A stretch of DNA of 47,854 bases from Clostridia bacterium (GTDB lineage: Bacteria > Bacillota > Clostridia > Oscillospirales > Acutalibacteraceae): positions 1 to 47,854 of the forward strand of contig JAFSEF010000069.1 in the NCBI GenBank assembly GCA_017435865.1. Direction: 5' to 3'. The notes beneath the pieces are model-generated. The model saw only the letters and a list, made by a program, of their open reading frames with translations. It was not told the DNA's origin and did not search any database. Positions 3,486 to 26,599 of this stretch are shown one piece after another (within the stretch, counting starts at the first letter, position 1; the number at the start of each line of letters is the position of its first letter). The position numbers and the translations under genes are program-made.

Positions 3486-4886
3486 TTAGTTTTCGTAGCC
3501 GAGTTTTTTGAGAATGGCAGGATCGCAGGTGTCTGCCATACCGCCGATTTCATCCCACAAGGCATCTGCCTGCTTTTTCCATGCCTGAAAATCGGCAGGT
3601 GATGTCGGATAATTGTCATACAGTTTGCCGACTTTTCCGCTTTGCAGCAGACCCTTTACAATTTTTCCGACCGTTTCCGTACGCAGCTTCTTCGTTGCGA
3701 TTCCGCGGGTGATGACAGCCAGCATTTTTGCAATGTCGCCTGCGGTGAGATCCAGTTCTTCACCCATACCGCCGAGGATTTTTGTGCTGAATATGCAGTC
3801 ATTGGCGAACAGGTATTCCGCTTCGTCATAATCAGCGGAAATGACACCGAACAGCATCGGACGCAGTGCATCGAAGTCTTTGCCCTGTGCTTTCATGTAG
3901 CGGCAGTTGATCGGCCAAAGATTTTCCTTTGTGAGATAGCCATCCTTTTTAAGCAGACCCGAAATGACGTCCACCGCAATTTCGCCCTGTACCATAGAAG
4001 ACGTCACACCTTCACCGCAGGTGGGTTTGGTCAGGAATGCAGCATCACCCATGGCAATAAAACCGTCGTCCACGCAGGAATAGAGTGTTCTGTGGTAAGG
4101 TGTCATGCCTTTTTCCACTTTTTCTACTCTGAATGCAGGGCGTTTGATATTCTGCAGGTAATCCTTGAACACTTCTTCCGCATAGTCATATCCGTAACCT
4201 GCACCGATGCCGAGGATGGCTCCGTGTTCGTTGCCTGACGGTGCCGACCATGCTTTGTATTGCATACAAAAACCGTCCATGGAACGCGGTTTGACGTTCT
4301 TGTCTTCGTATTCAACATAATAAAGCACAACAAAGAAGATGTCTTTGTTGGTCAGTTTGTAATTTTCAACAACCGAAGAATCGGGCAGCTTTGTGCGTGC
4401 CGCAGAAGGAATGCCGCTGCAATCCGCAACAATGCGTGCAAGCACTTCCTGTTTTCCGTCTTTTGTGACAAACGATGCACCGATGATGCGTTTGTTGTCA
4501 TCAAAAATAAAGTCATCAAAAGCAGCACCGTATATGATGTCGGCACCTGCTGCTCTTGCGGCATCATTCATACGCATAATGTAGTCATGCTTGTGTACAC
4601 CGATTACGGGACTCGGTGTGCCGATTTTCGGATGATTGCCGTACGGAGAAAAAATGCAGGAAGAAGCAAATGTAAATCCCCAGTCTTTGTCCGTGACGGC
4701 GGGAATCTCCATGCCGAATTTTTCCATGTCTTCTTTGCCGAAATGAATAATATCGTAAGCTCTGTTGACATCGTTCTGTTCTTCTTTTTCAATCACAAGA
4801 ACACTGAATCCCTGTTTTGCCATTTTCTGTGCAAACCAGCTGCCGGTTGTGGAAGCACCGACAACAAGAATATCATACTGTTTCAT
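3486..4886 (-). CDS. FAD-dependent oxidoreductase, geranylgeranyl-reductase/monooxygenase-like
   Basis: A 466-residue flavoprotein. An N-terminal Rossmann strand carries GASTTG (10-15), a variant of GxGxxG, with an acidic ribose-binding end at VIEKE (31-35). The second FAD signature GFIAMGDAA is at 275-283, followed by PTCGEGV. This layout is typical of the geranylgeranyl-reductase/p-hydroxybenzoate-hydroxylase superfamily, whose members reduce isoprenoid double bonds or hydroxylate substrates; the substrate here is unknown. ATG 4886 has GGGGG seven bases upstream; an in-frame ATG two codons earlier sits too close to that site. It is divergent from the GH3 gene with back-to-back promoters, suggesting joint control, so it may modify the acyl or amine part of the island's product. 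Confidence 0.8.
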   Translation of the reverse strand: MKQYDILVVGASTTGSWFAQKMAKQGFSVLVIEKEEQNDVNRAYDIIHFGKEDMEKFGMEIPAVTDKDWGFTFASSCIFSPYGNHPKIGTPSPVIGVHKHDYIMRMNDAARAAGADIIYGAAFDDFIFDDNKRIIGASFVTKDGKQEVLARIVADCSGIPSAARTKLPDSSVVENYKLTNKDIFFVVLYYVEYEDKNVKPRSMDGFCMQYKAWSAPSGNEHGAILGIGAGYGYDYAEEVFKDYLQNIKRPAFRVEKVEKGMTPYHRTLYSCVDDGFIAMGDAAFLTKPTCGEGVTSSMVQGEIAVDVISGLLKKDGYLTKENLWPINCRYMKAQGKDFDALRPMLFGVISADYDEAEYLFANDCIFSTKILGGMGEELDLTAGDIAKMLAVITRGIATKKLRTETVGKIVKGLLQSGKVGKLYDNYPTSPADFQAWKKQADALWDEIGGMADTCDPAILKKLGYEN

Positions 4887-4907
4887 ATTCATTCCCCCTT
4901 TTTTTCC

Positions 4908-4936
4908 ATTATACCATTGTTGTTTTCTGCTTGCAA
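4908..4936 (-). promoter_or_regulatory. Promoter of the FAD oxidoreductase gene
   Basis: On the minus strand: TTGCAA (4936-4931), 17-bp spacer, TATAAT (4913-4908) preceded by TGG, an extended -10. Confidence 0.75.
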
Positions 4937-5010
4937 TATACATTTTTTGCAGCACTTCGGAGACATTATGCTGTATTTGTCGTTTTTGCTTTTTCAGAAT
5001 GTTTTAGACG

Positions 5011-5039
5011 TTGCATTTTATTATTTTATATGATATAAT
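5011..5039 (+). promoter_or_regulatory. Promoter of the GH3/ATP-grasp operon
   Basis: TTGCAT (5011-5016), 17-bp spacer, TATAAT (5034-5039) with TGA just before it. The start codon follows 30 bp downstream. Confidence 0.8.
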
Positions 5040-5069
5040 AAATCGAATACTGACAAAGGGAGTGAGAAC

Positions 5070-6761
5070 ATGGGGAATGATTTTGCCTGGCGTAAAATGT
5101 CACAATTCTGCGGACATCTCGGAAATATTGTTTTTCGTGTTTCTTCGCGGTACACGGCTGACCCGATGCCCAATCAGCAGCAGCTGCTTGAAATGCTGAT
5201 GCAGAAGAATGCTGCCACCGAATACGGAAAAAAATACGGTTTTGAAAATATCACAACCTTTGAGCAGTATCAGGATTGTGTTCCGCTCACGTCTTATGAG
5301 GACTATGAACCCTATATTGACCGTATGCTCAACGGCGAACAGGGTCTTATTACTTACAAAAAAATCAAACGCTATGTGCAGACCTCAGGCAGTGCAGGCA
5401 AGCCGAAACTGATTCCGCTTTGCGGTAAGGCGATCTGGAATTTTCAGATCATGGGCTTTTGTGCACCGATGGGCTCTTCACTGAATTACTATAAACAACG
5501 CGGCGAAGAACTGCCTGCACAACGCAGTTTTCTGTTGATTGAAGTTGTCAACAAAGACCTGCCCAACGGCAACAAATCGAGTTGTCTGTCCGCACTTCCG
5601 TTCAACCTGCTGCGTCCGTTTTCTTCTTTCTTCTCGGTCACGCCGAAGGAAATCTTTTATCCCGAAAAACCCGACGAAACGGATATGAATTATTTCAAAC
5701 TTCGTTTTGCCCTTGAAAATGAAGGTGTAACAGCCCTGACGGCTGCCCTTGTCACATACATCGAGAGTATGTTCGAATACCTCGAAAAGAACTGGCAGAT
5801 TCTTGTGGATGATATCGAAAAGGGAACCATCGATTCGTCTGTTCGTTGTCCTGAACAACTGCGTAAAAAGTTGCTCAGGAAATGCAGACCGAACCCCGAA
5901 CGTGCGGCATGGTTACGCAGGGAGTTTGAAAAAGGATTCGACACACCCATTGCACCGCGAATCTGGCCGGAACTTGCATGGACATCTGCTATGCGAAGCG
6001 GTTCACTGGCTCTGTTTGCAGAAAAACTCAAAAAATATTGCGGCGATTTGCCGTTTAACAACACAGGCTATGTTGCCTCCGAATCGCTGATGGCAATGCC
6101 GCTTGAAATGAGTGCAACGGACGGTGTGCTGCTGCCCAAGAGCTGTCTTTTTGAATTCCTGCCCGTGGGTGCTCCCGAGGGAACAAGACCGCTGCTTTTG
6201 GATCAGCTTGAGGTCGGTAAGGACTATGAAGTCATCATCACCAACCTTGCAGGCTTGTACCGTTACCGTATGTATGACGTTGTGCGTGTGACGGGATATT
6301 ATCAGAAAACCCCGAAGGTGGAATTTTTGTATCGTTCCAACCTTGTTCTGAACATCACGGGTGAAAAAACAACCCAGAAAATGCTTGACTGGGCAGTGGA
6401 CAAGGCCTGTGCCGAGGTCGGTATGCAGTACGATCGTTTCTGTTTTGAAGGTGTTCTGCAGGACGGTCAGGCACCGTATTACAAAATTCTGTTTGAAGCA
6501 CCCGAAGCCGATGCGGAAGTTCGTGCAAAAATCGGCCCTGTGCTTGATAAATACCTGCGTGAGTCCAATCTTTATATTGATGTGCGTCGTCGTGAAGATG
6601 TGCTTGCCTGTCCGCAGGTGCAGTTCCTGATTCCGGGTACGTTTGATGCTTACACGCAGTCTTTGCGTGAAAAAGGTGTCAATATAAACCAGGTCAAACC
6701 CGTGACCATTCTGAATACGCAGGAACGCAAAGACTTTTTCCTTGCCCGTGTTGCAGACTGA
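5070..6761 (+). CDS. GH3-family acyl-adenylate amide synthetase (auxin/jasmonate-conjugase-like)
   Basis: A 563-residue member of the GH3 branch of the adenylate-forming (ANL) superfamily. In plants GH3 enzymes adenylate a carboxylate such as jasmonate or indole-acetate and join it to an amino acid. Seen here: the Ser/Thr/Gly ATP loop TSGSAGKPKLIP (105-116), an LYRYRMYDVV block near 396-405 that matches the GH3 hinge, and NITGEKTTQ near 428-436. ATG 5070 has GGGAG seven bases upstream. The next gene, an ATP-grasp ligase, starts 14 bp after the stop, so the two are probably cotranscribed. Bacterial GH3 proteins are mostly uncharacterised. The carboxylate could be a fatty acid and the amine an amino acid, but neither is shown. 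There is no signal peptide, so it is cytoplasmic. Confidence 0.88.
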   Translation: MGNDFAWRKMSQFCGHLGNIVFRVSSRYTADPMPNQQQLLEMLMQKNAATEYGKKYGFENITTFEQYQDCVPLTSYEDYEPYIDRMLNGEQGLITYKKIKRYVQTSGSAGKPKLIPLCGKAIWNFQIMGFCAPMGSSLNYYKQRGEELPAQRSFLLIEVVNKDLPNGNKSSCLSALPFNLLRPFSSFFSVTPKEIFYPEKPDETDMNYFKLRFALENEGVTALTAALVTYIESMFEYLEKNWQILVDDIEKGTIDSSVRCPEQLRKKLLRKCRPNPERAAWLRREFEKGFDTPIAPRIWPELAWTSAMRSGSLALFAEKLKKYCGDLPFNNTGYVASESLMAMPLEMSATDGVLLPKSCLFEFLPVGAPEGTRPLLLDQLEVGKDYEVIITNLAGLYRYRMYDVVRVTGYYQKTPKVEFLYRSNLVLNITGEKTTQKMLDWAVDKACAEVGMQYDRFCFEGVLQDGQAPYYKILFEAPEADAEVRAKIGPVLDKYLRESNLYIDVRRREDVLACPQVQFLIPGTFDAYTQSLREKGVNINQVKPVTILNTQERKDFFLARVAD

Positions 6762-6775
6762 AAGGTGTGAATGCA

Positions 6776-7855
6776 ATGGCAAAAATCAGTATACCTTATT
6801 CAAAAGTGCCCGGATTTATTCTGGGCATTTATTCTCGGGTTCCTTTTTACAATATGCTGTTTTATCGTATGCTCAACAACGAACCCGAAGCGTATCTTGA
6901 AAAGTTTTTTCCGACTTCCGGCTATCCGCAGGAAGAAAAAGAAAAAGTACGCAAAGACATGGAACGCGAATTCTGGTTCCACGGCACACATTTTGATGAA
7001 TATTTTTATTATGATTTTTACGGCAAAGACCGTGCTTATAAAGATGCTTTCATCAACGAAACACAGCGTTTTTCTTATTACAACAAGCTCAATACCATCA
7101 AAGGTATGAAGCAGTTTGACAATAAATGGAAAACATATCAGAAACTGTCTGCTTTTTACAAAAGAGAAGTTATTTACTGCAAAACGAAGGACGATTTTGC
7201 TGCTTTTGATTCTTTTCTGAAAAAGCACGGTACTGTCATTAAAAAGCCTGTGGATTCATATTTCGGTAACGGTGTGGAGATTCTGAAATCAGAACAGATT
7301 TCCGATGTGCAGCTTATTTTTGACGGGTTGCTGCAAAAGGGCAGTTTTCTTTGTGAAGAGTTGGTGCGACAGACCGGATTTTTCGCATCTCTGAATGCAA
7401 GTTCCCTGAACACGGTACGTATTCCTACGGTGCTGACGGGCAGCTCACCCGATACTTACAAAGTGCACGTGTTTTATCCTTGCCTGCGTATCGGCAGACA
7501 GGGGAGCATTGTGGACAATGCAGGTGCAGGCGGTCTGCTGGTGCAGGTCGATGCCGCCACGGGGGCTTTGTATCATACCGCCCGCGATGAAGCCAACAAT
7601 GCATACACAGCACATCCCGACAGCGGCATTGTGTTTGACGGTCTTTTTATTCCCGCATGGGAAGAAGCTGTCAGAACCGCAGAACAACTTGCTTTGTCCG
7701 TGCCCGAAAACCGCTATACAGGGTGGGATCTTGCCCTGACGGACAACGGATGGGTGCTGATTGAGGGCAACGCAAGAGCCCAGTTTCTGGTCGGACAAAT
7801 CTGCGACCGCATCGGAAAAAAACACGAACTGAACGCATTGCTGCATGAATCATAA
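6776..7855 (+). CDS. ATP-grasp ligase, sugar-transfer-associated (ATPgrasp_ST-like), copy 1
   Basis: A 359-residue ATP-grasp protein. The C-terminal signature GWDLALTDNGWVLIEGN (about 317-333) is the Mg/ATP-binding end of this family; a KKPVDSYFGNGVEIL block near residues 158-172 forms the Gly-rich ATP lid. ATP-grasp enzymes activate a carboxylate as acyl-phosphate and couple it to an amine, thiol or hydroxyl. The ATPgrasp_ST branch is often found near polysaccharide or capsule genes. ATG 6776 with AAAGGTG eight bases upstream is chosen over an in-frame GTG at 6767 that overlaps the ribosome site. It follows GH3 directly, and a homologue lies on the opposite strand at 9035-10072. The substrate is unknown. 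Confidence 0.85.
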   Translation: MAKISIPYSKVPGFILGIYSRVPFYNMLFYRMLNNEPEAYLEKFFPTSGYPQEEKEKVRKDMEREFWFHGTHFDEYFYYDFYGKDRAYKDAFINETQRFSYYNKLNTIKGMKQFDNKWKTYQKLSAFYKREVIYCKTKDDFAAFDSFLKKHGTVIKKPVDSYFGNGVEILKSEQISDVQLIFDGLLQKGSFLCEELVRQTGFFASLNASSLNTVRIPTVLTGSSPDTYKVHVFYPCLRIGRQGSIVDNAGAGGLLVQVDAATGALYHTARDEANNAYTAHPDSGIVFDGLFIPAWEEAVRTAEQLALSVPENRYTGWDLALTDNGWVLIEGNARAQFLVGQICDRIGKKHELNALLHES

Positions 7856-7859
7856 AAAT

Positions 7860-7898
7860 AAACGACCGGTGTACACGTTTTGTGTATGCCGGTCGTTT
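7860..7898. terminator. Bidirectional terminator between convergent operons
   Basis: A long stem (AAACGACCGG at 7860-7869 with CCGGTCGTTT at 7889-7898, extended inward by GTGTACAC/GTGTATGC with two G-U pairs). A-rich sequence before it and T-rich after it serve both strands. Confidence 0.85.
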
Positions 7899-7904
7899 CG
7901 GTTG

Positions 7905-9050
7905 TTATATGGAAAGTTTGTTGCCGAGGACTGCAGCAATGCGGTTGAAAGCTTTCGGATCGCTGTCTTTGGTAACAGGGACGGTGTGATGATCCGTATC
8001 TTCTTTGGTGACGATGGTGCAGCAGGGAATGCCGCTGACACAAGCCTGTGTTTTGCCGTTTTCCTTTTTCAGGTTGACGTTGAGAATCACCGTGTCCTGT
8101 GTGCCGTCCATGGTTTGCGAAGAAATGAAATTGCCGAAGGAATACAGGCAGGGTTTGCCGTTGACATAGTCAAACGCCTGCAGCACGTGCACATGGGAGC
8201 CTGCAATCAGGTCGCAACCTGCAGCGACAAGCTGTTTGGCCATTTTTTGCTGCCGTTTACTGACGTAGTGCTTGTATTCAATGCCCCAGTGCATATAGGT
8301 GATCACAAAGTCCGCACCGTCTTTTTTTGCTGCTGCAATGTCTTTTTTTGCTTTCGCTGCGGAATAGAGGTTGAGCATGGTGTTGCGGTCTTTTTTGCTC
8401 ATGTAGCAATCCTTGAAATTGTACCATGTTGCGTACGCAAGCACTGCCACGCGGATGCCGTTGACGTCGATGAGCAGGTATCTTTTCTTTTCGCTGCCGT
8501 CGAAAATGCCTGTTACGGGGATGCCTGCATTTCTGATGTTCTGCAAAGTTTGCAGGATGCCGTTTTTGCCGCCGTCACAGTTGTGGTTGTTGGCACTGAC
8601 AAGGGCATCAATGCCTGCTTCGCGGATGGCGGTGAGCCATTCATGCGGTGCATTCAGATGCGGCAGACCTTCGGAAAACGGACAATCGTCCATGTTTGGC
8701 AAAGAGTGGGAAACGATGGTTTCGAGGTTGCCCACCACAAGATCCGCTTTGTTGAACAAGGGTTTTACGGCATCAAAACTGCCCGAAAAATCATAACCGC
8801 TGTCTTTTTTGCAGGCAAGCTGCTGTTTTCTCTGACACATCAGGTCGCCGAGAAGAAGAATCTGTGCTTCGTCGGTTTTGCTTTCGTTGGTCAGGGAGGC
8901 ATCCTCACGGACTTTGAAACGGCTGTCACTCTTGTGTACGGGGGCAGCGGGATTGTTGACGGTTTGCAGCGGAATGGCTCTGGTCTTGCCCGACAATTCA
9001 TACAGAAGATAGTCAAGGAATAAACGGATGATTTTCAGCATTGTTCGCAT
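7905..9050 (-). CDS. CapA-family protein (poly-gamma-glutamate capsule type, metallophosphatase fold)
   Basis: A 381-residue protein with the CapA/PgsA signatures in order: GDLMC (about 68-72), VGNLETIVS (about 104-112), SANNHNCDGG, MHWGIEYKHY, AGSHVHVLQ and YSFGNF. Asp, Asn and His residues in these blocks match the calcineurin-like metal site. CapA proteins work in poly-gamma-glutamate synthesis or export, but homologues are widespread and often of unknown role. The N-terminus is an amphipathic helix, not a clear membrane anchor as in PgsA, so a cytoplasmic or peripheral membrane location is inferred. ATG 9050 has AGGAG eight bases upstream and overlaps the end of the ATP-grasp gene by 16 bp, indicating coupled translation. 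No CapB or CapC homologue is present, so it is not a standard capsule operon. Confidence 0.88.
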   Translation of the reverse strand: MRTMLKIIRLFLDYLLYELSGKTRAIPLQTVNNPAAPVHKSDSRFKVREDASLTNESKTDEAQILLLGDLMCQRKQQLACKKDSGYDFSGSFDAVKPLFNKADLVVGNLETIVSHSLPNMDDCPFSEGLPHLNAPHEWLTAIREAGIDALVSANNHNCDGGKNGILQTLQNIRNAGIPVTGIFDGSEKKRYLLIDVNGIRVAVLAYATWYNFKDCYMSKKDRNTMLNLYSAAKAKKDIAAAKKDGADFVITYMHWGIEYKHYVSKRQQKMAKQLVAAGCDLIAGSHVHVLQAFDYVNGKPCLYSFGNFISSQTMDGTQDTVILNVNLKKENGKTQACVSGIPCCTIVTKEDTDHHTVPVTKDSDPKAFNRIAAVLGNKLSI

Positions 9051-10072
9051 TTGTAATTCTCCTCTTTCAAAATGTTTTTCAACAGATCGGCTTTGCCGTT
9101 TTGTTTACATTGAATCAGTGTCAGCCCCTGGTTCCAGTTGCCTTCAATGATGACAGCACCCTGCGGTGTGATTGCAACATCCCATCCGATCCAATGGCCG
9201 TCACCGTTTTTTTCGCACAAAACGGAAGCTTTGCTGACCGTGTCAAGCAGCTTGTCCCAGTGCGGAATTGTGAAACCGCGGAATGTAAGACCGCTGACGG
9301 GGTGCTTTTCGTAGGTTTTCAGATCGTGGTCAAAGCCGTCGGAACACACAATACCTGTTTTTGTGTCCACCGCACAGCCGATTCCGCCGCGGACAAGATT
9401 GTCAACATCCGTTTTGCCGCAACCCGTTTTGAAGCAGGCACCGAGCAAACGGAAATGGCCGTTGATGCACACCCCTGAAATACGCAATGTGTTGACGGTT
9501 TGCGGATTGAAAGCCGTTATGCTTTCATGCTGCAGCAGAATTTCTTCCGCAAGACCGTGCTGCTTTTGCAGAGACTCGAATTGTGCAGCGGCATCCGCAT
9601 CGGAAGTGTATGTATATCTTTTTACCCCTCTGCCCTGAAACGCATCGGGTATTTTAAATACCGCTTCATTGTGCTTTTTTAAGAATGCAATAAAATCTTC
9701 CCGTGTGCAGGTGTCGCAGTCAATCCATTCTCTGCCGAGGAAATCGCTGTACCTGCTGTTGAACGTCTTTTTGCTGCCTGTGATGGTCAGGGCGGCATGA
9801 CGGTCACCGAGCAAAGACAAAATCCTGTGCTTGCGGTACATGGTCAGATATTGACGGATGACGTCATCTTCTTTGCCGTACAACTCATAATCCGTGTATT
9901 CGCTCAGCGTGCAGCGGATCAGCAGAACCGCGTGCAGGTAATGGCGGTAAGAAATTTGTTCTGCAGCAACACCGCGTTGCAGCATTGCCTTTTTGAATCT
10001 CCACGGGGAGGCAAGCAGCGTAAAACGGTATATGAATGCTTGTTCGGAAAAAAAGTGATACAGTTTACGCAT
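9035..10072 (-). CDS. ATP-grasp ligase, ATPgrasp_ST-like, copy 2
   Basis: A 345-residue paralogue of the ligase at 6776-7855. It shares the C-terminal GWDVAITPQGAVIIEGNWNQG signature (about 296-316), a KIPDAFQGRGVKRY lid near 139-152, and the TVNTLRI block that corresponds to LNTVRIP in copy 1. It overlaps both neighbours: its start ATGCGTAA shares 8 bp with the MFS stop, with AGGAGG eight to nine bases upstream inside the MFS gene, and its end overlaps the CapA start by 16 bp. Two ligases of one family in facing operons suggest two successive or alternative condensations on related substrates. The chemistry is inferred from fold only. Confidence 0.85.
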   Translation of the reverse strand: MRKLYHFFSEQAFIYRFTLLASPWRFKKAMLQRGVAAEQISYRHYLHAVLLIRCTLSEYTDYELYGKEDDVIRQYLTMYRKHRILSLLGDRHAALTITGSKKTFNSRYSDFLGREWIDCDTCTREDFIAFLKKHNEAVFKIPDAFQGRGVKRYTYTSDADAAAQFESLQKQHGLAEEILLQHESITAFNPQTVNTLRISGVCINGHFRLLGACFKTGCGKTDVDNLVRGGIGCAVDTKTGIVCSDGFDHDLKTYEKHPVSGLTFRGFTIPHWDKLLDTVSKASVLCEKNGDGHWIGWDVAITPQGAVIIEGNWNQGLTLIQCKQNGKADLLKNILKEENYKCEQC

Positions 10073-11351
10073 CTTCTGCGACCTCCTTTTGTGCGGGTGT
10101 TCTCACATTGCCGTGACGGATAAACGGTGTGCACAGCAATGCAGGCAGCATGGTGACGGCTGACAGGGGATACAGTGCTTTGTAACCTGCCTTGGTGCGG
10201 TCACACAGCAGACCCGCAAGGAAAGGTCCCGTTACCCTGCCGAGTTTGCAGGAATCCGTGTAAACGGAAGTAATGATGCCCACCGTACCCGAACCGGACA
10301 GTTCTATAAGCATGGGCAGCGGCAGAACGCTTTCCATGGACCAACCGATGCCGATGAACAGCAGTGACACAATGGCAGTAAAACCGAAACGGTCTGTCAA
10401 AGATGCAACCGCAAATCCGCCGAACATGAAAATATAAGACAGCAGCAAGGTTGTTTTTCTGCCGAGTCTGTCGGCAATTCTTGCGGTGAAAAGAATGCTG
10501 AAAAGGCCTGCAAGGTACAAACCGAACGTCAGCAAACCGGTGTGCGAAAACTGCATTCCCCACTGTGCGACCGCATAATTGAGATATGCCGAAGAAAAAG
10601 CATAGTAGGCAAATTTTGCAAAGAAATTGGCAGCCAGAATCAGGAAAAAGCTCTTTTTTTCACTTTGGCTGAACTGTCTGAGCAAAGCGGTCAGCGAGGT
10701 TTTTTCATCGCTTGACGGGCCGTTGCAGAGGTTCAGAATGTCTTTTTGCTGTTCGCGGAGTTTGTTTTCGCGTACCGCAAAGATGTAAAAGAGTGTGCAA
10801 TTGAGCACCGTGCCTGCGGATACGAGATAAATGACCGTGAAATCGGTGTCGAAAATGAGAATCAGCAGCACGACCCATGCACCGCCGAGTGAACAGACAA
10901 TGCGGTTGATGACACTTGCGTGTGCGTTTCGGTGTTTTGGTGTCAGATCGGGAACCAGTGCCGTTGCGGCGGGATTGACCATGCATATACCGATTGCACC
11001 TGCAAAAATGCAAAGCAGGAAAAAGGTCAGATTTTGCTGTTCATAAAACAGGACCGACCCTGCAAGGAATGCGGCACACACGAAACCGCCTGTCACAATG
11101 AACGGAGTCCGTCTGCCGAATTTTGATTTGCAGCGATCCGAAAGAGCCCCCCACAGCGGCAGCAGCAACATAGTCAGCAGTTGACTTGCGGCAATGACGG
11201 TTCCCTTGAATGTTTCGCTTTTTGAAAAACCGGATACAAGCACATTCTGCAGCGTGGAGTTCATAATTTCATCCCATATTCCGATTGCAAGCTGAATGAC
11301 GGATATTTTTATGATCAATGCGGTGTTGGTTGCAGGTTGTTTTGTCTGCAA
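10065..11351 (-). CDS. MFS transporter, GPH/SLC45-like
   Basis: A 428-residue protein with about twelve membrane helices. The motif GALSDRCKSKFGRRTPFI between helices 2 and 3 resembles the GPH:cation symporter and SLC45 branches, which carry sugars; a second motif ADRLGRKTT lies in the other half. The start is taken as TTG at 11351, because GGGGG lies exactly seven bases upstream and no ATG exists before the first helix. It opens an operon with ATP-grasp copy 2 and CapA. It could import a building block or export a product of those enzymes; the family name suggests sugar, but this is not proof. Confidence 0.87.
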   Translation of the reverse strand: MQTKQPATNTALIIKISVIQLAIGIWDEIMNSTLQNVLVSGFSKSETFKGTVIAASQLLTMLLLPLWGALSDRCKSKFGRRTPFIVTGGFVCAAFLAGSVLFYEQQNLTFFLLCIFAGAIGICMVNPAATALVPDLTPKHRNAHASVINRIVCSLGGAWVVLLILIFDTDFTVIYLVSAGTVLNCTLFYIFAVRENKLREQQKDILNLCNGPSSDEKTSLTALLRQFSQSEKKSFFLILAANFFAKFAYYAFSSAYLNYAVAQWGMQFSHTGLLTFGLYLAGLFSILFTARIADRLGRKTTLLLSYIFMFGGFAVASLTDRFGFTAIVSLLFIGIGWSMESVLPLPMLIELSGSGTVGIITSVYTDSCKLGRVTGPFLAGLLCDRTKAGYKALYPLSAVTMLPALLCTPFIRHGNVRTPAQKEVAEDA

Positions 11352-11372
11352 ATGAACACCCCCTTTTTATTT

Positions 11373-11401: not shown

Positions 11402-11471
11402 CCGTCCTGCACAATCAGCCGCAAATACAAGCGACAATTCTTTCAAAAATGTATCATTTTTATGAATATGT

Positions 11472-11500
11472 TTGACATTGTGTGCTGTTCGTGTTACTCT
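11472..11500 (+). promoter_or_regulatory. Promoter of the patatin gene
   Basis: Perfect TTGACA (11472-11477), 17-bp spacer, TACTCT (11495-11500) with TGT before it. The argF promoter has the same unusual TACTCT -10 element. Confidence 0.6.
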
Positions 11501-11532
11501 AATATACATTGATATCAAAATGGGGAAGTAAA

Positions 11533-12381: not shown

Positions 12382-12406
12382 TTGTATATTATTTATATTA
12401 TTAAGC

Positions 12407-12435
12407 TTGATTTTCCGCAACATATTGTGTATACT
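12407..12435 (+). promoter_or_regulatory. Promoter of the acyl-ligase/ACP operon
   Basis: TTGATT (12407-12412), 17-bp spacer, TATACT (12430-12435). The -10 lies inside a palindrome described in the next entry. Confidence 0.8.
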
Positions 12436-12450
12436 GAAACAGTATGTTGC
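12417..12450. promoter_or_regulatory. Operator-like inverted repeat over the -10 region
   Basis: ATACTG-AAA-CAGTAT (12431-12445) is a perfect inverted repeat overlapping the -10 and the expected start of transcription. It is bounded by GCAACATA (12417-12424) and TATGTTGC (12443-12450). The position suits repression by a dimeric regulator such as a TetR-type protein. No regulator gene is nearby. Confidence 0.6.
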
Positions 12451-12470
12451 ATTTTGTGTAAGGAGGGGAA

Positions 12471-14237
12471 ATGATGGCGGAACGTCCCGTTTTTTCGGAG
12501 CACCGTAAGGCAATGCTGGCTCTCGGACCGCTGCAAACCCTCCGTGATCTTCTGCACCGTGTTGCGTTGCAGGGCGGCGACGATGTACTTGTCGTCGAAA
12601 AAGACGGCAACGAAAAAATCTGCTATACCGCATCTCAGATTTACGAGGATGTATGTGCCGTCGGGACGTATCTGACCGCAAACGGTTTTTGCGGAAAAAA
12701 CATTGTTTTGCTCGGGGAGAATTCCTATCGCTGGATCGTCAGTTTCCTTGCAATTACCTGCAGCGGTGCCGTAGCGGTGCCTCTGGATCGCGAACTGACG
12801 GATGCCGACCTTTGCAAACTTGCATCCCTCGGTGATGCACAAGCCGTTTTTTGTTCGGAAACCTTTGCACCTCTTGCATTGCAGATCGCAGAGCAAAACG
12901 GTTGCGGCAGTGTTTTTCTGATGGGTGATGAAGCAACTGCACCGGATGCGGTTGCATGGACTTCTCTTGTGGAGCAAGGGCAGCAGTTGCGAGAACAGTA
13001 TGTTTTTGCGGATGACCGTCTGCAAGGAACGGATGTCGCTGCGATTGTGTTTACTTCCGGCACCACGGGGTTCAACAAAGGGGTTTTGCTGACCCACGGC
13101 AATCTCGCAAGCAACATCAATTCCGTTGCACAGAATGTTGCTCTTGAGGACAGCACGATCTCGGTGCTGCCGATGAATCATATTTACGAACTCAACTGCA
13201 ATATTTTACCCATGCTTTACCTGCATACCGTCATCTGCATCAATGACCGTATGCGCAATCTGATGCACAACCTGCGGTTCTTCCAACCCCGTATGGCTGT
13301 GGTGGTTCCGCTTTTTCTGGAGAGTTTTTACAATAACATCTGGCAGAAATTCAGAAAAGAAGGCAGCGATCAGCGTATGAAAAGGCTGCTTGCAATAAGC
13401 AACCGCCTGCTTGAAAGCGGAATTGATTTACGCAGGGTGATTTTTAAGCGACTGCATTCCTATTTCGGTTCGGAACTGAAATTGATTATCTGCGGCGGTG
13501 CACCCGTGAATCAGAGATATGTCAACGGACTGACCGAACTCGGCTTTGATATATACGTCGGTTACGGGCTGACGGAAGCGTCTCCCATAGCCGCCCTGAA
13601 TACAAATCCCTTTGCACATCCCGACAGTGTCGGACAACCTTTTGCACAGACCCGTGTGCATATTTTTGCTCCCGACAGTGACGGCGAAGGTGAAATCTGG
13701 CTGCAGGGAGATAACATTACGGCAGGGTATTACAAAGATGACCAGGCAACGAAGGATTCTTTTGAAAACGGTTGGTTCAAAACAGGTGACTACGGCAGGT
13801 TCACTTCTGACGGGTATCTGCAGGTCACCGGCAGAAAAAAGAATCTGATCGTACTTGACAACGGCAAAAACGTACATCCCGAGGAAATCGAGGAATTGAT
13901 ACGAACGCAACTGCCGTATGTGTGTGAAGTTGTTGTCATGGAAACCGAAAAAGAGATATTCGGCAGCAGACAAAAGATTATTGCCGCCGTGTTATATGTG
14001 GATTCGGATGCATTTCCGGGTCTTTCAACCGAAGAAATTGAAAAAATCACAAAAAAAGATATGATAACCGTCAACGAAAAACTGCCCGGTTACAAATCAG
14101 TCAATCACATTTTTATATCCGCAGACCGTTTTCAGAAAAATTCCACCAAAAAGGTTTTACGTAGCAAGGTGATTGAACAATACGGAGAAGTGTTCGGAAA
14201 ACAAAAGACACAAAGGGGAGGAGTCTTTGATGTTTGA
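12471..14237 (+). CDS. Long-chain fatty acyl-AMP ligase / acyl-ACP synthetase, copy 1
   Basis: A 588-residue ANL-superfamily enzyme that adenylates a carboxylate and passes it to a thiol. Motifs: VFTSGTTGFNKGV (about 192-204), GYGLTEASP, WFKTGDYGR, and GRKKNLIVLDNGKNVHPEE. The catalytic Lys is probably in KNSTKKVLR near residue 560. The last motif set is typical of fatty acid ligases. The next gene, an ACP, overlaps its stop by 8 bp (ATGTTTGA), so the acyl acceptor is probably that ACP instead of CoA. AGGAGG lies four bases before ATG 12471 and seven before ATG 12474, so the second Met may be the true start. A paralogue is encoded at 16564-18357. Confidence 0.88.
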   Translation: MMAERPVFSEHRKAMLALGPLQTLRDLLHRVALQGGDDVLVVEKDGNEKICYTASQIYEDVCAVGTYLTANGFCGKNIVLLGENSYRWIVSFLAITCSGAVAVPLDRELTDADLCKLASLGDAQAVFCSETFAPLALQIAEQNGCGSVFLMGDEATAPDAVAWTSLVEQGQQLREQYVFADDRLQGTDVAAIVFTSGTTGFNKGVLLTHGNLASNINSVAQNVALEDSTISVLPMNHIYELNCNILPMLYLHTVICINDRMRNLMHNLRFFQPRMAVVVPLFLESFYNNIWQKFRKEGSDQRMKRLLAISNRLLESGIDLRRVIFKRLHSYFGSELKLIICGGAPVNQRYVNGLTELGFDIYVGYGLTEASPIAALNTNPFAHPDSVGQPFAQTRVHIFAPDSDGEGEIWLQGDNITAGYYKDDQATKDSFENGWFKTGDYGRFTSDGYLQVTGRKKNLIVLDNGKNVHPEEIEELIRTQLPYVCEVVVMETEKEIFGSRQKIIAAVLYVDSDAFPGLSTEEIEKITKKDMITVNEKLPGYKSVNHIFISADRFQKNSTKKVLRSKVIEQYGEVFGKQKTQRGGVFDV

Positions 14238-14457
14238 ACGGTTAATTGCAGTGCTTGCGGAATATATTTCCGTTGATGCGAAAAAGATTGATACGGATTC
14301 CTCTTTGCGAATGGATTTGGGGCTCAATTCGCTGGATCTTGTCAATCTTGCCGTTTCCGTTGAGAACGAGTTCGGGGTGGATATCTCCGACAGAGATCTC
14401 AGCATAATGAAAACTGTCGGTGATATGCTGTATCATCTTGAACACGCCGGCAGATAA
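14230..14457 (+). CDS. Acyl carrier protein 1
   Basis: A 75-residue ACP. Phosphopantetheine attaches to Ser34 in DLGLNSLDLVNLAV; the usual DSL motif is NSL here, an Asp-to-Asn change shared with ACP 2. The four-helix pattern and acidic composition fit the family. ATG 14230 has GGAGGAG six to seven bases upstream, within the end of the ligase gene, so translation is coupled to it. Its likely role is to carry an acyl chain loaded by ligase copy 1. No fatty acid synthase genes are present, so a dedicated secondary ACP is likely. Confidence 0.93.
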   Translation: MFERLIAVLAEYISVDAKKIDTDSSLRMDLGLNSLDLVNLAVSVENEFGVDISDRDLSIMKTVGDMLYHLEHAGR

Positions 14458-14473
14458 AATCGAGGGAAAGAGA

Positions 14474-15472
14474 ATGAACAACAAAACCAAATACTACATC
14501 ATACTCGGCGTAAGCGTGCTTGTTTTCTGCATCGCACTGGTGTTTGTCAGCAAGCTGACCAATGATGCGGCAGGGGATATGCTCATCGGTCTGCACGATG
14601 CCGCTTCGAATGCTTACGCACAGCAGGGCGGTTCTGTGCCGACTACGCAGAATGTGCAGAATCCTTATACATATCCCGATATGCAGTATGTGCCGTCCGA
14701 ACAGCAGACCGCAGTCATTCCGCAGCCTTCCGTGCAGCAGCAGATGCCTGTGGATCCGTATGCAACGCAGTATTATGCACAGCAGCCCGCAACACAGATG
14801 CCGCAGAATGCACCTGTTGCAGGAACCGTGCTTGATGTCAATGCCGGAAAAACACAGATTCTGGAAGCCATGTGCATGGCGGTCAATTCCGTAAAAACCG
14901 CACAGAATTTCGGTGCTGTCAAATACCAGAACATCAGCATCAATCTTGATGATTGCAGTGTTCCGATGGCAGTCTCCCTTGTGAATCCCATTATTCAGAA
15001 TTTTACGGGGGAAGAAACGCTGAATTATCAGTTTGTCAACGGTACCTGTATCGGCCCGAAATCGGGTGAACCCGTAACACCCAACCTTGTCATTCCGCCG
15101 TCGGACCGTCTGTTTGCACTCGATCCCAACGGTGTCACGGCTGCCGTGGTGACCAAAAACGGAACGGAAACCACTTACAGCATTTCTGTTGTCGGTGAAA
15201 CGGCAACGCTTGAGAGTCCCGCACCGTATTATCATGCCATGTGCATGGATTATCTCGACATGAATGCACTGGATCTCGGTATTGCAAAAATCAACAGCGG
15301 TTCTTATACCTATCCGGGCTCAACGGTGAATGTGACCGTCAACCAGCTCGGACAGATCATCCGCTACGAAGAATATATGCCTTTGTCCGCGTACGGTGAA
15401 GGTACACTCGGTTTTACGGCTTCGGGAACCATCAGCGGTTTCCTGCACGAAGTCTGGACATTTACTTGGTAA
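14474..15472 (+). CDS. Exported single-pass membrane protein with Pro/Gln-rich linker, function unknown
   Basis: A 332-residue protein not assigned to a named family. Residues 7-25 form one membrane helix (an uncleaved signal anchor is likely). Residues about 45-115 are rich in Gln, Pro and Tyr, a flexible wall-spanning linker. Residues about 120-332 alternate polar and hydrophobic residues, like a beta-rich extracellular domain with few charges. ATG 14474 has GAGGGA five bases or more upstream, and the gene lies 16 bp after ACP 1 and 32 bp before the reductase gene. Its place inside an acyl-activation operon suggests contact with a lipid product outside the cell, for instance as a LolA/LppX-like lipid binder. 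That is speculation from position and strand pattern. Confidence 0.75.
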   Translation: MNNKTKYYIILGVSVLVFCIALVFVSKLTNDAAGDMLIGLHDAASNAYAQQGGSVPTTQNVQNPYTYPDMQYVPSEQQTAVIPQPSVQQQMPVDPYATQYYAQQPATQMPQNAPVAGTVLDVNAGKTQILEAMCMAVNSVKTAQNFGAVKYQNISINLDDCSVPMAVSLVNPIIQNFTGEETLNYQFVNGTCIGPKSGEPVTPNLVIPPSDRLFALDPNGVTAAVVTKNGTETTYSISVVGETATLESPAPYYHAMCMDYLDMNALDLGIAKINSGSYTYPGSTVNVTVNQLGQIIRYEEYMPLSAYGEGTLGFTASGTISGFLHEVWTFTW

Positions 15473-15504
15473 ATTAATATTTTTATTAACAGGGGGATAT
15501 TAAA

Positions 15505-16515
15505 ATGAAAGTATTGTTGGTCGGTTCCGGTGCAATCGGTTCCTGTATTGCTGTTCTTGTTAAGGAAGCAGGTTATGATATTGATGTTCTGGAACTCAAA
15601 AGTGAATTTGCGGACATCATCCGCAACAAAGGTATTCATCTGACCGGTGCGAAGGGTGAACATACCATGAAGCTGAACGCATATTCTTCCGTTGACGAAC
15701 TGCCCGGAAAATATGATGTCTGTTTTATTGCTACCAAGACATTCTCTATGGCACCTGCTGCCAAGAGTGTTCTGCCCGTACTCAAGGACGATGCTCTTGT
15801 CATTTCCATGCAGAACGGTATCTGCACTGAAATTCTTGCAGAAGTTGTCGGTGCAAACCGCACTGTCGGTTGTGCCATCGGTTACGGTGCCACCATGCAT
15901 ACATTCGGTGAAGTCGAAATGACCTCTTCGGGCGACCTGTACATCGGTATGCTCAAGGGTCAGTCTTCCCCGAAACTTGAAGAAGTCCGCAAGATGATGT
16001 CTGCACTTCTTCCCACCATCGTTGACAAAGACATCATTGCTCGTCAGTACTCCAAGCTCATCATCAACTCCTGCATCAACGCACTGGCTGCCATCTGCGG
16101 AGAAAAGCTCGGTGTTCTGCTTGATGACCCCAGAGCCTGCAAGGTATTCCTCGGCATTGCAAGAGAGGGTATCTATGTTGCAAAGGCAATGGGACTCAAA
16201 GTGCCTCCCTTCAAAAAGGTACTTGACTACAATCTGCTGACACTGACAGATGCTGCATGGTTTGATGCTTGTGCTACATTCCTGTTCCGTCTGATCGGTA
16301 AAAAAGGCTTCGGTGCCGTCAAGCCCTCCACTTTGCAGGCACTTGAACGCGGCGAAGTGACCGAAATTGATTATTTCAACGGTTACATTGCAGCCAACGG
16401 TGCAAAGTACGGTGTGGCAACACCTGTCAATTCTCTTGCCGTGCAGATGGTCAAGGAAATTGAAAAGGGCGAACGCAAGATGACGCTTGATAATCTTGAT
16501 GAATTTAAGCTGTAA
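15505..16515 (+). CDS. Ketopantoate reductase family protein (PanE/ApbA-like)
   Basis: A 336-residue NADP-dependent reductase. The N-terminal GSGAIGS (7-13) is the dinucleotide loop. The block YSKLIINSCINALAAICG places the family's catalytic Lys at about 184, followed by the Asn of helix I. A C-terminal EIDYFNGYI segment matches the GE(i/v)d.lnG.i motif. True PanE reduces 2-dehydropantoate to pantoate for CoA synthesis; many homologues act on other 2-oxo acids. GGGGG lies eight bases before ATG 15505. It is embedded between two ligase/ACP pairs and upstream of the phosphopantetheinyl transferase, so it either supplies pantoate for the ACP prosthetic group or reduces an island-specific substrate. 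The sequence cannot decide between these. Confidence 0.85.
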   Translation: MKVLLVGSGAIGSCIAVLVKEAGYDIDVLELKSEFADIIRNKGIHLTGAKGEHTMKLNAYSSVDELPGKYDVCFIATKTFSMAPAAKSVLPVLKDDALVISMQNGICTEILAEVVGANRTVGCAIGYGATMHTFGEVEMTSSGDLYIGMLKGQSSPKLEEVRKMMSALLPTIVDKDIIARQYSKLIINSCINALAAICGEKLGVLLDDPRACKVFLGIAREGIYVAKAMGLKVPPFKKVLDYNLLTLTDAAWFDACATFLFRLIGKKGFGAVKPSTLQALERGEVTEIDYFNGYIAANGAKYGVATPVNSLAVQMVKEIEKGERKMTLDNLDEFKL

Positions 16516-16563
16516 AAATCGGTTATAAGCCGTTTTAATAACCTCTTATAAGGAGAAAAAAGA

Positions 16564-18357
16564 ATGACTTCCATTGAATTGACCGCACAGGAAAAGAAAA
16601 TACTTGATGCTCTTCGTCATGAAGTGCATATGATCGGCCCGCTTGCCCACCTCAAGGACATGGTCACGCGTGTTGAAACCGGCTACGGTGAAGAACGTGT
16701 TGCTTTTGTTGAAAAGCAAAAGATCAAAGGCCGTGAATTTGAAGTTGTTTCGCATACCATCGGCGAATTCAAAGCCAAAAGAGCTGCTTTGGGCACTGCT
16801 TTGACTGCAATGGGTTTAAAAGGCAAGCACATTGCAATCATCGGCGAAACATCCTTCAACTGGATTCTTTCCTTCTATGCAACCGTTTGCGGTGTCGGTG
16901 TTGCCGTTCCGCTCGATAAGGAAATGACTGACGAAGAAATCAGCCATCTCATTGACAAAGCTGACTGCGATGCTGTTTTTTGCTCCAAAACATATTTCAA
17001 AGCCGCAAAAGCATATATGGATACGCATCCCGATTGCATTTGTTGCGTTACATTCAACAAGGAAGTTGCAGAGGACAGATATTTTACCATTGATGCTCTG
17101 ATTGAAAAAGGTAAGCAACTGCTTGCGTCCGGCAATACCGAATATGTGGATGCAGTTGTGGATTCCGAAGATCTTTGTGCCATTATTTTTACATCGGGTA
17201 CAACCGGTGCAAATAAAGGTGTTATGCTTTCTCACCGCAATTTCTGTGCGAATGTCGATAATGTTATCGAAACCATTCCGACCGAATATTCTTCGTTCTC
17301 GCTGCTGCCGATCAACCATGTTTTTGAGCTCAGCTGCAATATCATGGTTGCATTCTATATGAATGCCGTCATTTACATCAATGACAGCCTCAAGAACATT
17401 CTTCCCAATATTCAGCTCTTCCAGCCCGATGCCATGAATGCCGTTCCGTTGGTGCTTGAGGGCATTTACAACGGTATCTGGGCAAAGGCAAAAGAAGGCG
17501 GAAAAGCAGAAATTCTGCAAAAGCTCGTCAAAGTCAGCAACAAGCTTCGCAAGCACGGTATCGACCTGCGTCATGTGCTGTTCAAAACCATCAGCAGAAG
17601 CTTCGGTAACCGTTTCCCGACTCTGATCTGCGGCGGTGCACCGTCGAGAAAAGACTATGTCACAGGTCTTGGTGATCTCGGTTTCCGTGTTTACAACGGC
17701 TATGGTCTGACCGAAACCGCACCCTCTGTTACCCTGAATATGCAGGCTGACAAAGACCCGACTTCTGCAGGTTTTGCACTGCCTCGTTGTGAGTTCAAGA
17801 TCAACGAACCCGATGCGGACGGTGTCGGTGAAATCTGGGTACGCGGTACCAATGTGTTCCGCGGATACTACAAGGATGAAGAAGCCACAAAGGCCTCCTT
17901 TGAAGGCGAATGGTTCAAGACCGGTGACTACGGTACTGCAACCGCTGAAGGCGAACTGTTTGTTGTCGGCAGAAAGAAAACACTCATTATTCTTGACAAC
18001 GGCAAGAACGTATTCCCCGAAGACATTGAATTTGCCGTTATGGATAATCTGCACTACATCCGTGAAGCCTGTGCTCTGGAAGCCGAAAAGGTAATCGCAG
18101 GTGAACTTCGCAAGATCATTGCTGTCGTCATTTATGTTGAACCCGCTGATTTTGAAGGCATGACCGAAGAAGAAATCAAAAAGAAGGTTGCCGACGATAT
18201 TTATAACGATGTCAACCGTAAGATGATTTCTTACAAAAAGGTGCAGGATGTTGTTGTGGTCTTCAATGAATTTGAAAAGACCACCACAAGAAAAGTCATT
18301 CGCGCAAAAGTTACAGATACGTACAATACTGCTGTCAAAACAGCTGCTAAGGTATAA
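16564..18357 (+). CDS. Long-chain fatty acyl-AMP ligase / acyl-ACP synthetase, copy 2
   Basis: A 597-residue paralogue of the ligase at 12471-14237, with the same motif order: IIFTSGTTGANKGVMLSH (about 207-224), GYGLTETAPS, WFKTGDYGT, GRKKTLIILDNGKNVFPED, and a C-terminal TTTRKVIR near 573-580 with the expected catalytic Lys. AAGGAG precedes ATG 16564. ACP 2 begins 13 bp after its stop. The repeated ligase-ACP order suggests duplication of a two-gene module. Each ligase may prefer its own ACP or its own chain length. The protein is cytoplasmic, with no membrane segment. Confidence 0.9.
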   Translation: MTSIELTAQEKKILDALRHEVHMIGPLAHLKDMVTRVETGYGEERVAFVEKQKIKGREFEVVSHTIGEFKAKRAALGTALTAMGLKGKHIAIIGETSFNWILSFYATVCGVGVAVPLDKEMTDEEISHLIDKADCDAVFCSKTYFKAAKAYMDTHPDCICCVTFNKEVAEDRYFTIDALIEKGKQLLASGNTEYVDAVVDSEDLCAIIFTSGTTGANKGVMLSHRNFCANVDNVIETIPTEYSSFSLLPINHVFELSCNIMVAFYMNAVIYINDSLKNILPNIQLFQPDAMNAVPLVLEGIYNGIWAKAKEGGKAEILQKLVKVSNKLRKHGIDLRHVLFKTISRSFGNRFPTLICGGAPSRKDYVTGLGDLGFRVYNGYGLTETAPSVTLNMQADKDPTSAGFALPRCEFKINEPDADGVGEIWVRGTNVFRGYYKDEEATKASFEGEWFKTGDYGTATAEGELFVVGRKKTLIILDNGKNVFPEDIEFAVMDNLHYIREACALEAEKVIAGELRKIIAVVIYVEPADFEGMTEEEIKKKVADDIYNDVNRKMISYKKVQDVVVVFNEFEKTTTRKVIRAKVTDTYNTAVKTAAKV

Positions 18358-18370
18358 AGGAGAAAGAATT

Positions 18371-18601
18371 ATGCTTGAAAAACTCAGAGAAATCATTTGT
18401 GAATTTGTCCAGATGGATCCGCAGAGCATCACCGAACAGACCAACATCCGTTCCGATCTCGGTCTGAATTCGCTTGAACTTGTCAACCTTGCCGTTGCCA
18501 TCGAAGATGCTTTCGATCTTGAAATTCCCGACCGTGCTGTTGTCGGCATCGAAACCGTTGCAGACGTTATGGCACTGCTCGAAGAATACAGCGAAGATTG
18601 A
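18371..18601 (+). CDS. Acyl carrier protein 2
   Basis: A 76-residue ACP with Ser34 in DLGLNSLELVNLAV, the same NSL variant as ACP 1. AAGGAG lies eight bases before the ATG. It follows ligase copy 2 and ends just before a terminator-like hairpin. It is expected to be converted to the holo form by the phosphopantetheinyl transferase encoded next. Confidence 0.93.
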   Translation: MLEKLREIICEFVQMDPQSITEQTNIRSDLGLNSLELVNLAVAIEDAFDLEIPDRAVVGIETVADVMALLEEYSED

Positions 18602-18607
18602 TTGACA

Positions 18608-18642
18608 AAGTTCGCAGGACCTTGTGTCTTGCGAACTTTTTT
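18608..18642 (+). terminator. Intrinsic terminator or attenuator between ACP 2 and the PPTase gene
   Basis: A 13-bp stem (18608-18620 with 18626-18638, one G-U pair), 5-nt loop and six T. The PPTase ribosome site GGAG starts two bases after the T-run, leaving no room for a promoter, so PPTase expression probably depends on read-through. Confidence 0.85.
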
Positions 18643-18654
18643 CGGAGATAATAT

Positions 18655-19308
18655 ATGGTATATTATTTTGCTTGGCAACCCGATGCTTTACCGGTGCTGC
18701 CGGAAGATTGGCAGAAATATCTGTCACCGCAGCGACTTGAAAAAGCACTCGCATATAAAAATGAAAAAGATAAAATCGCAAGTGTATATGCGTTTTTGCT
18801 TTTGCGTTATGCTTTGTATAAGGAATACGGCATAACGGAAATGCCGGATATTTACACGGACGAAAACGGAAAACCGCAGGAAAAAAACGGCAGATATCAT
18901 TTTAATATATCGCATTGTGCCACAGGGGTCGCCTGTGCGGTGGATACGACTTGCATCGGAGTGGATGTGCAGGATTTCCGCCCGATCCGTAATAATGTGC
19001 TGCCAAAAGTCTGTTCGGAGAATGAACAAGCATTGCTTTTGCAGTGCTCGACTCCTGAAAAGCTCTTTGCCGCATTCTGGGCAGGGAAGGAAGCATATGG
19101 TAAGTACACAGGCGAAGGCATCGGCTATGCAATGAATGAGAAGTCCTTTTGTGCGGATGGAGTATTGCCTTCTGTTGCTTTTGAGGGAAATTGTATGGTA
19201 CAGACTGATATGCATGAAAACTTCGCACTCTCTGTCTGCTCCGGATTTGAAATGCAGATGCAGGAAATAAAAGAACGGGACTTGCAGTTGTTTCTGCATC
19301 TTCTTTAA
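18655..19308 (+). CDS. Sfp-type 4'-phosphopantetheinyl transferase
   Basis: A 217-residue enzyme that moves phosphopantetheine from CoA to the Ser of carrier proteins. Seen: FNISHCATG (83-91), IGVDVQD (101-107) and FWAGKEAYGKYTGEG (141-155), which match the Sfp substrate and Mg-binding motifs. Residue Gln106 stands where Sfp usually has Glu, a known type of variation. GGAG lies seven bases before ATG 18655. Its place at the end of the ligase/ACP operon makes ACP 1 and ACP 2 its probable substrates; a local transferase is typical of secondary-metabolite or specialised lipid clusters. Confidence 0.92.
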   Translation: MVYYFAWQPDALPVLPEDWQKYLSPQRLEKALAYKNEKDKIASVYAFLLLRYALYKEYGITEMPDIYTDENGKPQEKNGRYHFNISHCATGVACAVDTTCIGVDVQDFRPIRNNVLPKVCSENEQALLLQCSTPEKLFAAFWAGKEAYGKYTGEGIGYAMNEKSFCADGVLPSVAFEGNCMVQTDMHENFALSVCSGFEMQMQEIKERDLQLFLHLL

Positions 19309-26498: not shown

Positions 26499-26556
26499 GC
26501 TGAAATAAAAAACAACAACGGGAACTGTAATTGTGCAGTTTCCTATAAAGTAAAAT

Positions 26557-26587: not shown

Positions 26588-26599
26588 TTGAATCTGTTG

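Follow-up and report, generated by a model that had tools for sequence, protein, structure and literature searches.

A candidate acyl-amide biosynthetic island with two ligase/carrier modules, a GH3 synthetase and ATP-grasp ligases in a Clostridia bacterium

The window analysed here, that is, the whole stretch of 47,854 nucleotides, is contig C52 (JAFSEF010000069.1) of a genome of a Clostridia bacterium (3.1 Mb in 133 contigs, 85% complete). Between positions 3486 and 19308 it carries an island of genes for acid activation and amide ligation, which is on balance probably a locus for the biosynthesis of acyl amides, either fatty acid amides (FAA) or lipoamino acids. All genes that an earlier note on this DNA had named in this region were recovered as open reading frames (ORFs) with Pfam matches, and their activity classes were supported. 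Three members of the same conserved block had remained unnamed, namely Unk10 and the hydrolases ABH1 and ABH2. Pfam family scans covered 18 window proteins, and none of these contained a ketosynthase, acyltransferase or ketoreductase, in agreement with the earlier note. The features are as follows.

3486..4886, minus strand: FADox, an FAD reductase of the geranylgeranyl-reductase family (NCBIfam model DGGGPL_reductase 148.8 bits, below the cut-off of 580)
5070..6761, plus strand: GH3 acyl-acid amido synthetase (PF03321 at 5e-72, GH3_M, GH3_C)
6767..7855, plus strand: AG1, ATPgrasp_ST ligase with a GTG start (PF14397, 4e-47)
7860..7898, no strand: terminator-like hairpin (18 pairs) where the converging AG1 and CapA genes meet (consensus match only)
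7905..9050, minus strand: CapA/PgsA-like protein (PGA_cap; PF09587, 1e-64)
9035..10072, minus strand: AG2, second ATPgrasp_ST ligase (PF14397, 4e-37)
10065..11351, minus strand: transporter of the major facilitator superfamily (MFS; PF07690, 7e-37)
about 11533..12381, plus strand: patatin-like lipase with DUF6363 (PF01734, PF19890; GVSAG motif)
12471..14237, plus strand: Lig1, acyl-AMP ligase (PF00501 and AMP-binding_C_3)
14230..14457, plus strand: ACP1, acyl carrier protein (ACP; PF00550, 2e-13; serine of GLNSL)
14474..15472, plus strand: Unk10, membrane-anchored protein of a family without Pfam match, between ACP1 and PanE
15505..16515, plus strand: PanE/ApbA reductase (TIGR00745, 178.6 bits, over the cut-off of 141.35)
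16564..18357, plus strand: Lig2, acyl-AMP ligase (PF00501)
18371..18601, plus strand: ACP2, carrier protein (PF00550, 9e-15; serine of GLNSL)
18655..19308, plus strand: Sfp-type phosphopantetheinyl transferase (PPTase; PF01648; WAGKEA motif)
19505..21055, plus strand: ABH1, alpha/beta hydrolase with a signal-peptide-like start and a GRCEG box with Cys (ORFs, motif)
21227..22783, plus strand: ABH2, alpha/beta hydrolase with a signal-peptide-like start and a GRCEG box with Cys (ORFs, motif)

The island consists of four units: FADox (minus), GH3-AG1 (plus), MFS-AG2-CapA (minus, with overlapping ends) and the long unit from patatin via Lig1, ACP1, Unk10, PanE, Lig2 and ACP2 to PPTase (plus), which is followed by ABH1 and ABH2. 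The paired promoters of the earlier note were seen in the gap between FADox and GH3, where a promoter-like site occurs on each strand (4936-4908 and 5005-5034), but not between MFS and patatin, where a single site on the minus strand was detected (11401-11373). The total of the scan, 36, was weakly above that of shuffled sequences (mean 25.7, sd 5.5); the promoter- and terminator-like sites are consensus matches only and fit the four units in part.

Each ligase is accompanied by its own carrier, with an overlap of 8 bases for Lig1/ACP1 and a distance of 13 bases for Lig2/ACP2. A stand-alone acyl-AMP ligase with a separate ACP is also found in the FAA pathway, which was reportedly first described by Chang et al. 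in 2021. The view that pre-made acids are activated on stand-alone carriers was thus upheld. In the main comparison set of 200 genomes of the bacterial family, the present one included, Lig2 homologues with at least 46% identity occurred in 11 genomes, again including this one. In 8 of the 11, a condensation (C) domain of the C72 type was directly adjacent and an ACP2-like carrier was present, in the order C-ligase-ACP; three of these eight (G008, G044 and G163) possess ligases of the Lig1 lineage. Relatives of ACP2 (51-73% identity) were found in eight C-ligase-ACP cassettes, and gene orders such as C-Lig2-ACP2-PPTase (G076) and GH3-C-Lig2-ACP2 (G056) occurred as well.

In a maximum-likelihood tree of 25 ligases, Lig2 formed a group with those of G056, G060 and G108 (99/97), which the ligases of G076 and G138 joined at the next deeper node (98/95); all of these except that of G108 are C72-adjacent. 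Lig1 grouped with the C72-adjacent ligases of G008, G044 and G163 (99/99). A tandem duplication of the ligase/ACP pair within the island was therefore rejected, as Lig1 and Lig2 represent different lineages. Since both belong to separate groups of C-adjacent ligases, two FAA-type loading modules of separate origin are combined in the island. Two FAA-type ligase/ACP pairs are also present in G108 (L272, L273), in which no C72-type condensation match was found.

Judged from its genes, the island is without the usual condensation partner of its two loading modules, and it contains no free-standing C domain in the same cluster. Matches to PF00668 in this genome are located on contigs C9, C118, C37 and C115, with a further one below cut-off on C10 and none on C52. 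In both this genome and its relative G187 the C72-type domain is present in unlinked form, on contig C118 and at a distance of 171 kb, respectively, and the two proteins are 89% identical. The pathway sketched in the earlier note is incomplete in this respect: the condensing enzyme that normally stands beside ligase/ACP pairs of this type was not detected in the window but is encoded on a different contig.

The best match of the C118 domain in the PDB was OaaC (12KH; E 8.6e-53, nearly full length), the condensation enzyme of FAA synthesis (PMC13142362); the next solved C domain followed at 2.3e-9. Its motif SHIIMDA retains the conserved His and Asp, while Ala replaces the canonical Gly, a replacement that this paper gives for 36% of its FAA condensation domains, and the first letter is Ser instead of Asp or His. 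Apart from this first letter, the genome thus encodes a C domain of the FAA class, defined by (D/H)HxxxDS or DA.

The island GH3 exceeded the cut-offs of PF03321, GH3_M and GH3_C and is hence a member of the GH3 family. Its solved relatives are plant GH3 structures (E values down to 2.5e-49), and it reached 72.1 bits with the NCBIfam model of the bacterial enzyme OlsH (NF052613), of which the cut-off is 620. GH3 matches were obtained in 24 of the 200 genomes of the family and in 20 of 291 genomes of the class (19 over cut-off). The present genome encodes three GH3s, the third of which (L052; G000:C10, 1-6466) precedes genes for a PapA/condensation-like acyltransferase (AcT5) and a ligase.

The surroundings of GH3 genes were compared by tblastn between 85 of 111 GH3 loci and 35 of 38 control stretches. 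The four island loci, loci shorter than 11 kb and loci with a GH3 protein already counted were left out, and other GH3 loci of the island's own genus were kept. The controls (at least 15 kb; mean 19.8 kb versus 17.9 kb for the GH3 loci) were chosen arbitrarily, not at random, and some sit on contigs known to carry ligases. Enriched near GH3 were the C domain (14/85 versus 0/35, p 0.006), ACP (13/85 versus 0/35, p 0.008), AcT5 (17/85 versus 0/35, p 0.002) and ABH hydrolases (26/85 versus 4/35, p 0.02). FADox (2 versus 0) and Unk10 (6 versus 0, p 0.12) were not enriched; tblastn overlooks distant relatives, and a profile search yielded more Unk10 loci and one patatin (L141).

Sub-modules of the array also recur outside the island group. 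Two loci of other genera (L057 and L152) exhibit a fuller set in the order ligase-C-ACP-GH3-AcT5-ligase, with FADox in L057; in L043/L084 and L057, a FADox relative and a GH3 are 5-6 kb apart. Relatives of Unk10 were located directly upstream of GH3 in L049, L088, L092 and L101 and likewise of a C domain in L279; its profile gave a best E value of only 0.014 against the PDB. Relatives of ABH2 occurred inside GH3 stretches of other genera.

GH3s with at least 38% identity were detected in 20 genomes, C72-type domains with at least 40% in 17 and both in 13 (p 1.7e-12; by genus 12, 11 and 8 of 135, p 3e-8), with thresholds set after the lists had been seen, 201 instead of 200 genomes and statistics that ignore relatedness. 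In a GH3 tree, made by a quick method and with long branches, the AcT5-adjacent GH3s almost all fell together (2 changes for 19 rows).

The complete array was detected in four genomes only: the present one, G187 (L077; also G473), G472 (L076) and G474 (L078). Wide conservation of the complete island was therefore rejected. The three relatives are uncultured Oscillospiraceae or Clostridia bacteria, and goat cecum is named as the source of two of them. G187 retains the order FADox-GH3-AG1-CapA-AG2-MFS-patatin-Lig1-ACP1-Unk10-PanE-Lig2-ACP2-PPTase-ABH2-BNR-OTC-ABH3, in which OTC is an ornithine carbamoyltransferase and BNR a BNR protein, and the conserved order ends abruptly at either flank. Within the searched 92 kb of the G187 contig, with overlapping weaker matches left out of the display, 16 other window genes (a kinase, a symporter and 14 more) as well as ABH1 and ABH4 had no place of their own. 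G472 and G474 share the block order of G187 and additionally contain ABH1.

A comparison of the window with G474 gave identities of 53-96% for the proteins and 27-62% for fourfold-degenerate sites, and such low values at these sites beside conserved proteins indicate that the block is of long standing. Lig2, ACP2 and FADox are strongly constrained (91, 96 and 88% identity in amino acids, against 59, 62 and 44% at fourfold sites). A recent transfer of PanE/Lig2/ACP2 was rejected as the cause of their high identity, since their fourfold sites (52-62%), somewhat above those of most neighbours, are long diverged.

Among 39 non-truncated relatives of ABH1 and ABH2 in the loci compared (45 rows including 6 truncated copies), 31 possess Cys in the nucleophile box. 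With Cys in place of Ser, acyl transfer would be expected to prevail over hydrolysis. The window encodes two more members of this hydrolase family, ABH3 and ABH4 (25050-28300), which have Ser boxes, SASMG and ATSMG.

AG1 weakly matched a model of RimK-related glutamate ligases (33 bits; the cut-off is 314) and had no PDB match at E<=1. The CapA-like protein matched structures of poly-gamma-glutamate synthesis proteins (E 3e-7) and, weakly, the model of the MslH epimerase (49 bits, cut-off 700). Of the CapA, CapB and CapC set of poly-gamma-glutamate capsule systems, the 18 window proteins scanned comprise a CapA-like one, and no other capsule family turned up among them. The idea that CapA and ATP-grasp genes form a conserved pair in other places was rejected, as no two lay close together outside the window among the matches listed. 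The ATP-grasp/CapA/MFS arm is an addition seen only in the island group, with a putative chemistry deduced from family membership. FADox resembles solved proteins of archaea (4opi, 3atq and others; E about 3e-22), the PPTase reached 57.7 bits with the AusB model (cut-off 225), and two ApbA genes, the island PanE included, were found in the genome.

Taken together, two FAA-type ligase/ACP pairs, a PPTase, a GH3, two ATP-grasp ligases and an unlinked FAA-type C domain are encoded. Pre-made acids most likely take two routes of activation: loading onto carriers, from which a condensing enzyme would use them in trans, and direct activation by GH3. To the observed gene content, homology and linkage patterns, the following scheme adds a trans partnership, substrates, an order of steps and a product that we infer. 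Fatty acids would be supplied by the patatin and the secreted hydrolases. The PPTase would arm ACP1 and ACP2, and Lig1 and Lig2 would adenylate fatty acids and load them onto these carriers. The C118 domain, in trans, would then join the loaded acyl chains to a free amine. GH3 would adenylate an acid without a carrier and couple it to an amino acid in an OlsH-like manner, whereupon AG1, coupled to GH3, could add a further amino acid or amine to the carboxyl group of the product. Modification and export of a related product might fall to AG2, CapA and MFS. The likeliest role of PanE is in pantothenate formation or the reduction of 2-keto acids, and FADox may reduce a double bond in the acyl chain.

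This acyl-amide assignment is favoured because Lig1 and Lig2 group with different C-adjacent ligases, and because of the C72 adjacency in 8 of 11 genomes, the OaaC match, the enrichment of GH3 neighbours and the block shared by four genomes. A more elaborate form of it, which we consider rather unlikely, is a lipopeptide assembly without a modular nonribosomal peptide synthetase. Here an N-acyl amino acid made by GH3 would be extended by the coupled ATP-grasp ligase to an N-acyl dipeptide, which the CapA-like protein would epimerise or trim; in parallel, the two FAA modules of different lineages would share the unlinked condensation enzyme, and a single cell would thereby yield mixed acyl amides from dietary fatty acids.

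Several observations weigh against the acyl-amide assignment. No condensation domain occurs among the 18 window proteins scanned, so the partnership of C118 with the island ACPs is a presumed step. Outside the island group, the Lig2 homologue of G108 comes closest (65%), yet this genome, 95% complete, gave no C72 match. Ligases were not enriched near GH3 (10/85 versus 4/35), and the same was true of ATP-grasp (1 versus 0), CapA and MFS (0 versus 0 each), patatin and PanE (0 versus 1 each) and PPTase (1 versus 0). As ATP-grasp, CapA, MFS, PanE and PPTase scarcely recur there, it is their clustering in the island that speaks for a shared pathway. The C72-type label was scattered in the GH3 tree (6 changes for 6 rows). 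According to PMC13142362, FAA condensation domains exclude amino acids as acceptors, which GH3s use, and two different amide products are therefore possible. The conserved block also comprises OTC and BNR, which have no evident link to acyl amides, so that collinearity is no proof of common function; in this genus, the genes close to the C118 condensation domain keep their order as well. This OTC (24037-25023) is the only one found in the genome and is 92-96% identical to the copies in the three relatives. OTC as a pathway gene was rejected, since the other match is a 305-aa paralogue (32-34%), and a housekeeping role is likelier.

OTC and BNR inside the block are also consistent with the strongest alternative, namely that two or three unrelated modules lie side by side without a shared product: FAA loading from patatin to PPTase, GH3-ATP-grasp, and a CapA-ATP-grasp-MFS set for a surface polymer. 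The four units, the strand changes and the strong terminator-like hairpin at 7860-7898 fit such a juxtaposition, as do the absence of CapA and MFS from the 85 other GH3 loci and the single ATP-grasp gene among them. The best AG1 relatives retrieved likewise sit in other contexts, for example in L192, by eye a polysaccharide-looking cluster with another ATP-grasp protein. However, only 5 bases separate AG1 from GH3, a distant genus (L070) likewise has GH3 and ATPgrasp_ST as neighbours, and the block is kept in four genomes and ends at either flank in G187. Separate modules are the less probable reading. In L070 (G196:C238) a distant GH3 stands beside ATPgrasp_ST, a SpoIIE-domain protein and a MatE transporter, with a C-ACP-ligase set about 6.5 kb off.

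It is improbable that the Lig/ACP pairs are salvage acyl-ACP synthetases which feed exogenous fatty acids to membrane lipids, with GH3 as an OlsH-like maker of lyso-amino-lipids. The strong constraint on Lig2, ACP2 and FADox given above would suit this, and N-acyl ornithine made by OlsH serves membrane lipids (PMC12493201), but Lig2 relatives sit in C-Lig-ACP cassettes and GH3 matches plant GH3s well and the OlsH model poorly. It is very improbable that Lig1 and Lig2 are acyl-CoA ligases of normal fatty acid degradation, which the earlier note had named among its refuting cases, and that their neighbours are there by chance: the best NCBIfam models of Lig1 and Lig2 are indeed acyl-CoA ligases, but none of the best 25 of 101 and 93 matched models reached its cut-off, each ligase has its own ACP, and no beta-oxidation family was named among the 18 proteins scanned.

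For the acyl-amide locus, the closest known systems are the FAA pathway OaaA/OaaACP/OaaC of Coprococcus eutactus (PMC13142362) and OlsH/OlsI of Singulisphaera acidiphila (PMC12493201). With the former the island shares the stand-alone acyl-AMP ligase, the separate ACP, a free-standing non-canonical C domain in the genome and the occurrence in gut Clostridia; it differs in lacking the C domain at the locus, in its two ligase/ACP pairs of two lineages and in the added GH3, ATP-grasp, CapA and PPTase genes. OlsH converts fatty acid, ornithine and ATP to N-acyl ornithine, and its authors suggest that other bacterial GH3s form other N-acyl amino acids and mention such compounds in gut Clostridia. 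Common to the island and OlsH/OlsI are a bacterial GH3 expected to couple an acid to an amino acid with ATP and alpha/beta hydrolases in the region. Instead of sharing an operon with the GH3, as expected of an OlsI-type hydrolase, ABH1 and ABH2 lie 13-16 kb downstream and have signal-like starts and the Cys box; moreover, the island GH3 is far below the OlsH cut-off and is followed by an ATP-grasp gene. Plant GH3 amido synthetases (JAR1, GH3.8 and others) have the same GH3 domains, whereas the island GH3 is bacterial and stands in a lipid-loading context. CapA/PgsA of the poly-gamma-glutamate capsule and MslH share PF09587 with the island protein, with weak matches in both cases.

The proposal of an amide product agrees with the grouping of the ligases with those of FAA cassettes and with the membership of OlsH in the GH3 family. 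Regarding one pathway deduced from clustering, acid activation and amide joining were confirmed for the core, while a single conserved and undescribed pathway was not. A widely co-conserved neighbourhood of GH3, ATPgrasp_ST, ligase/ACP and PPTase was not observed, with one ATPgrasp_ST-like gene, no CapA and one PPTase at the 85 other GH3 loci. Undescribed is too strong a word, as cassettes of the FAA type and a GH3 from a bacterium that synthesises N-acyl amino acids have been published (PMC13142362, PMC12493201). The arrangement is a new combination of known parts. No link of GH3 to FAA or ATPgrasp_ST was found in titles and abstracts of a literature search, from whose coverage most subscription journals fall outside. 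Gut-bacterial acyl amides act on host receptors, as stated in PMC13142362. If GH3s do provide a second, carrier-free route to such amides in gut Clostridia, and if loading modules can function with an unlinked condensing enzyme, searches for complete ligase-ACP-C clusters would overlook producers.

Further downstream in the window, a surface protein of 1281 aa is encoded (30076-33921), in which HTDECY-like repeats and an LPETG-type C-terminal end were recognised by eye.

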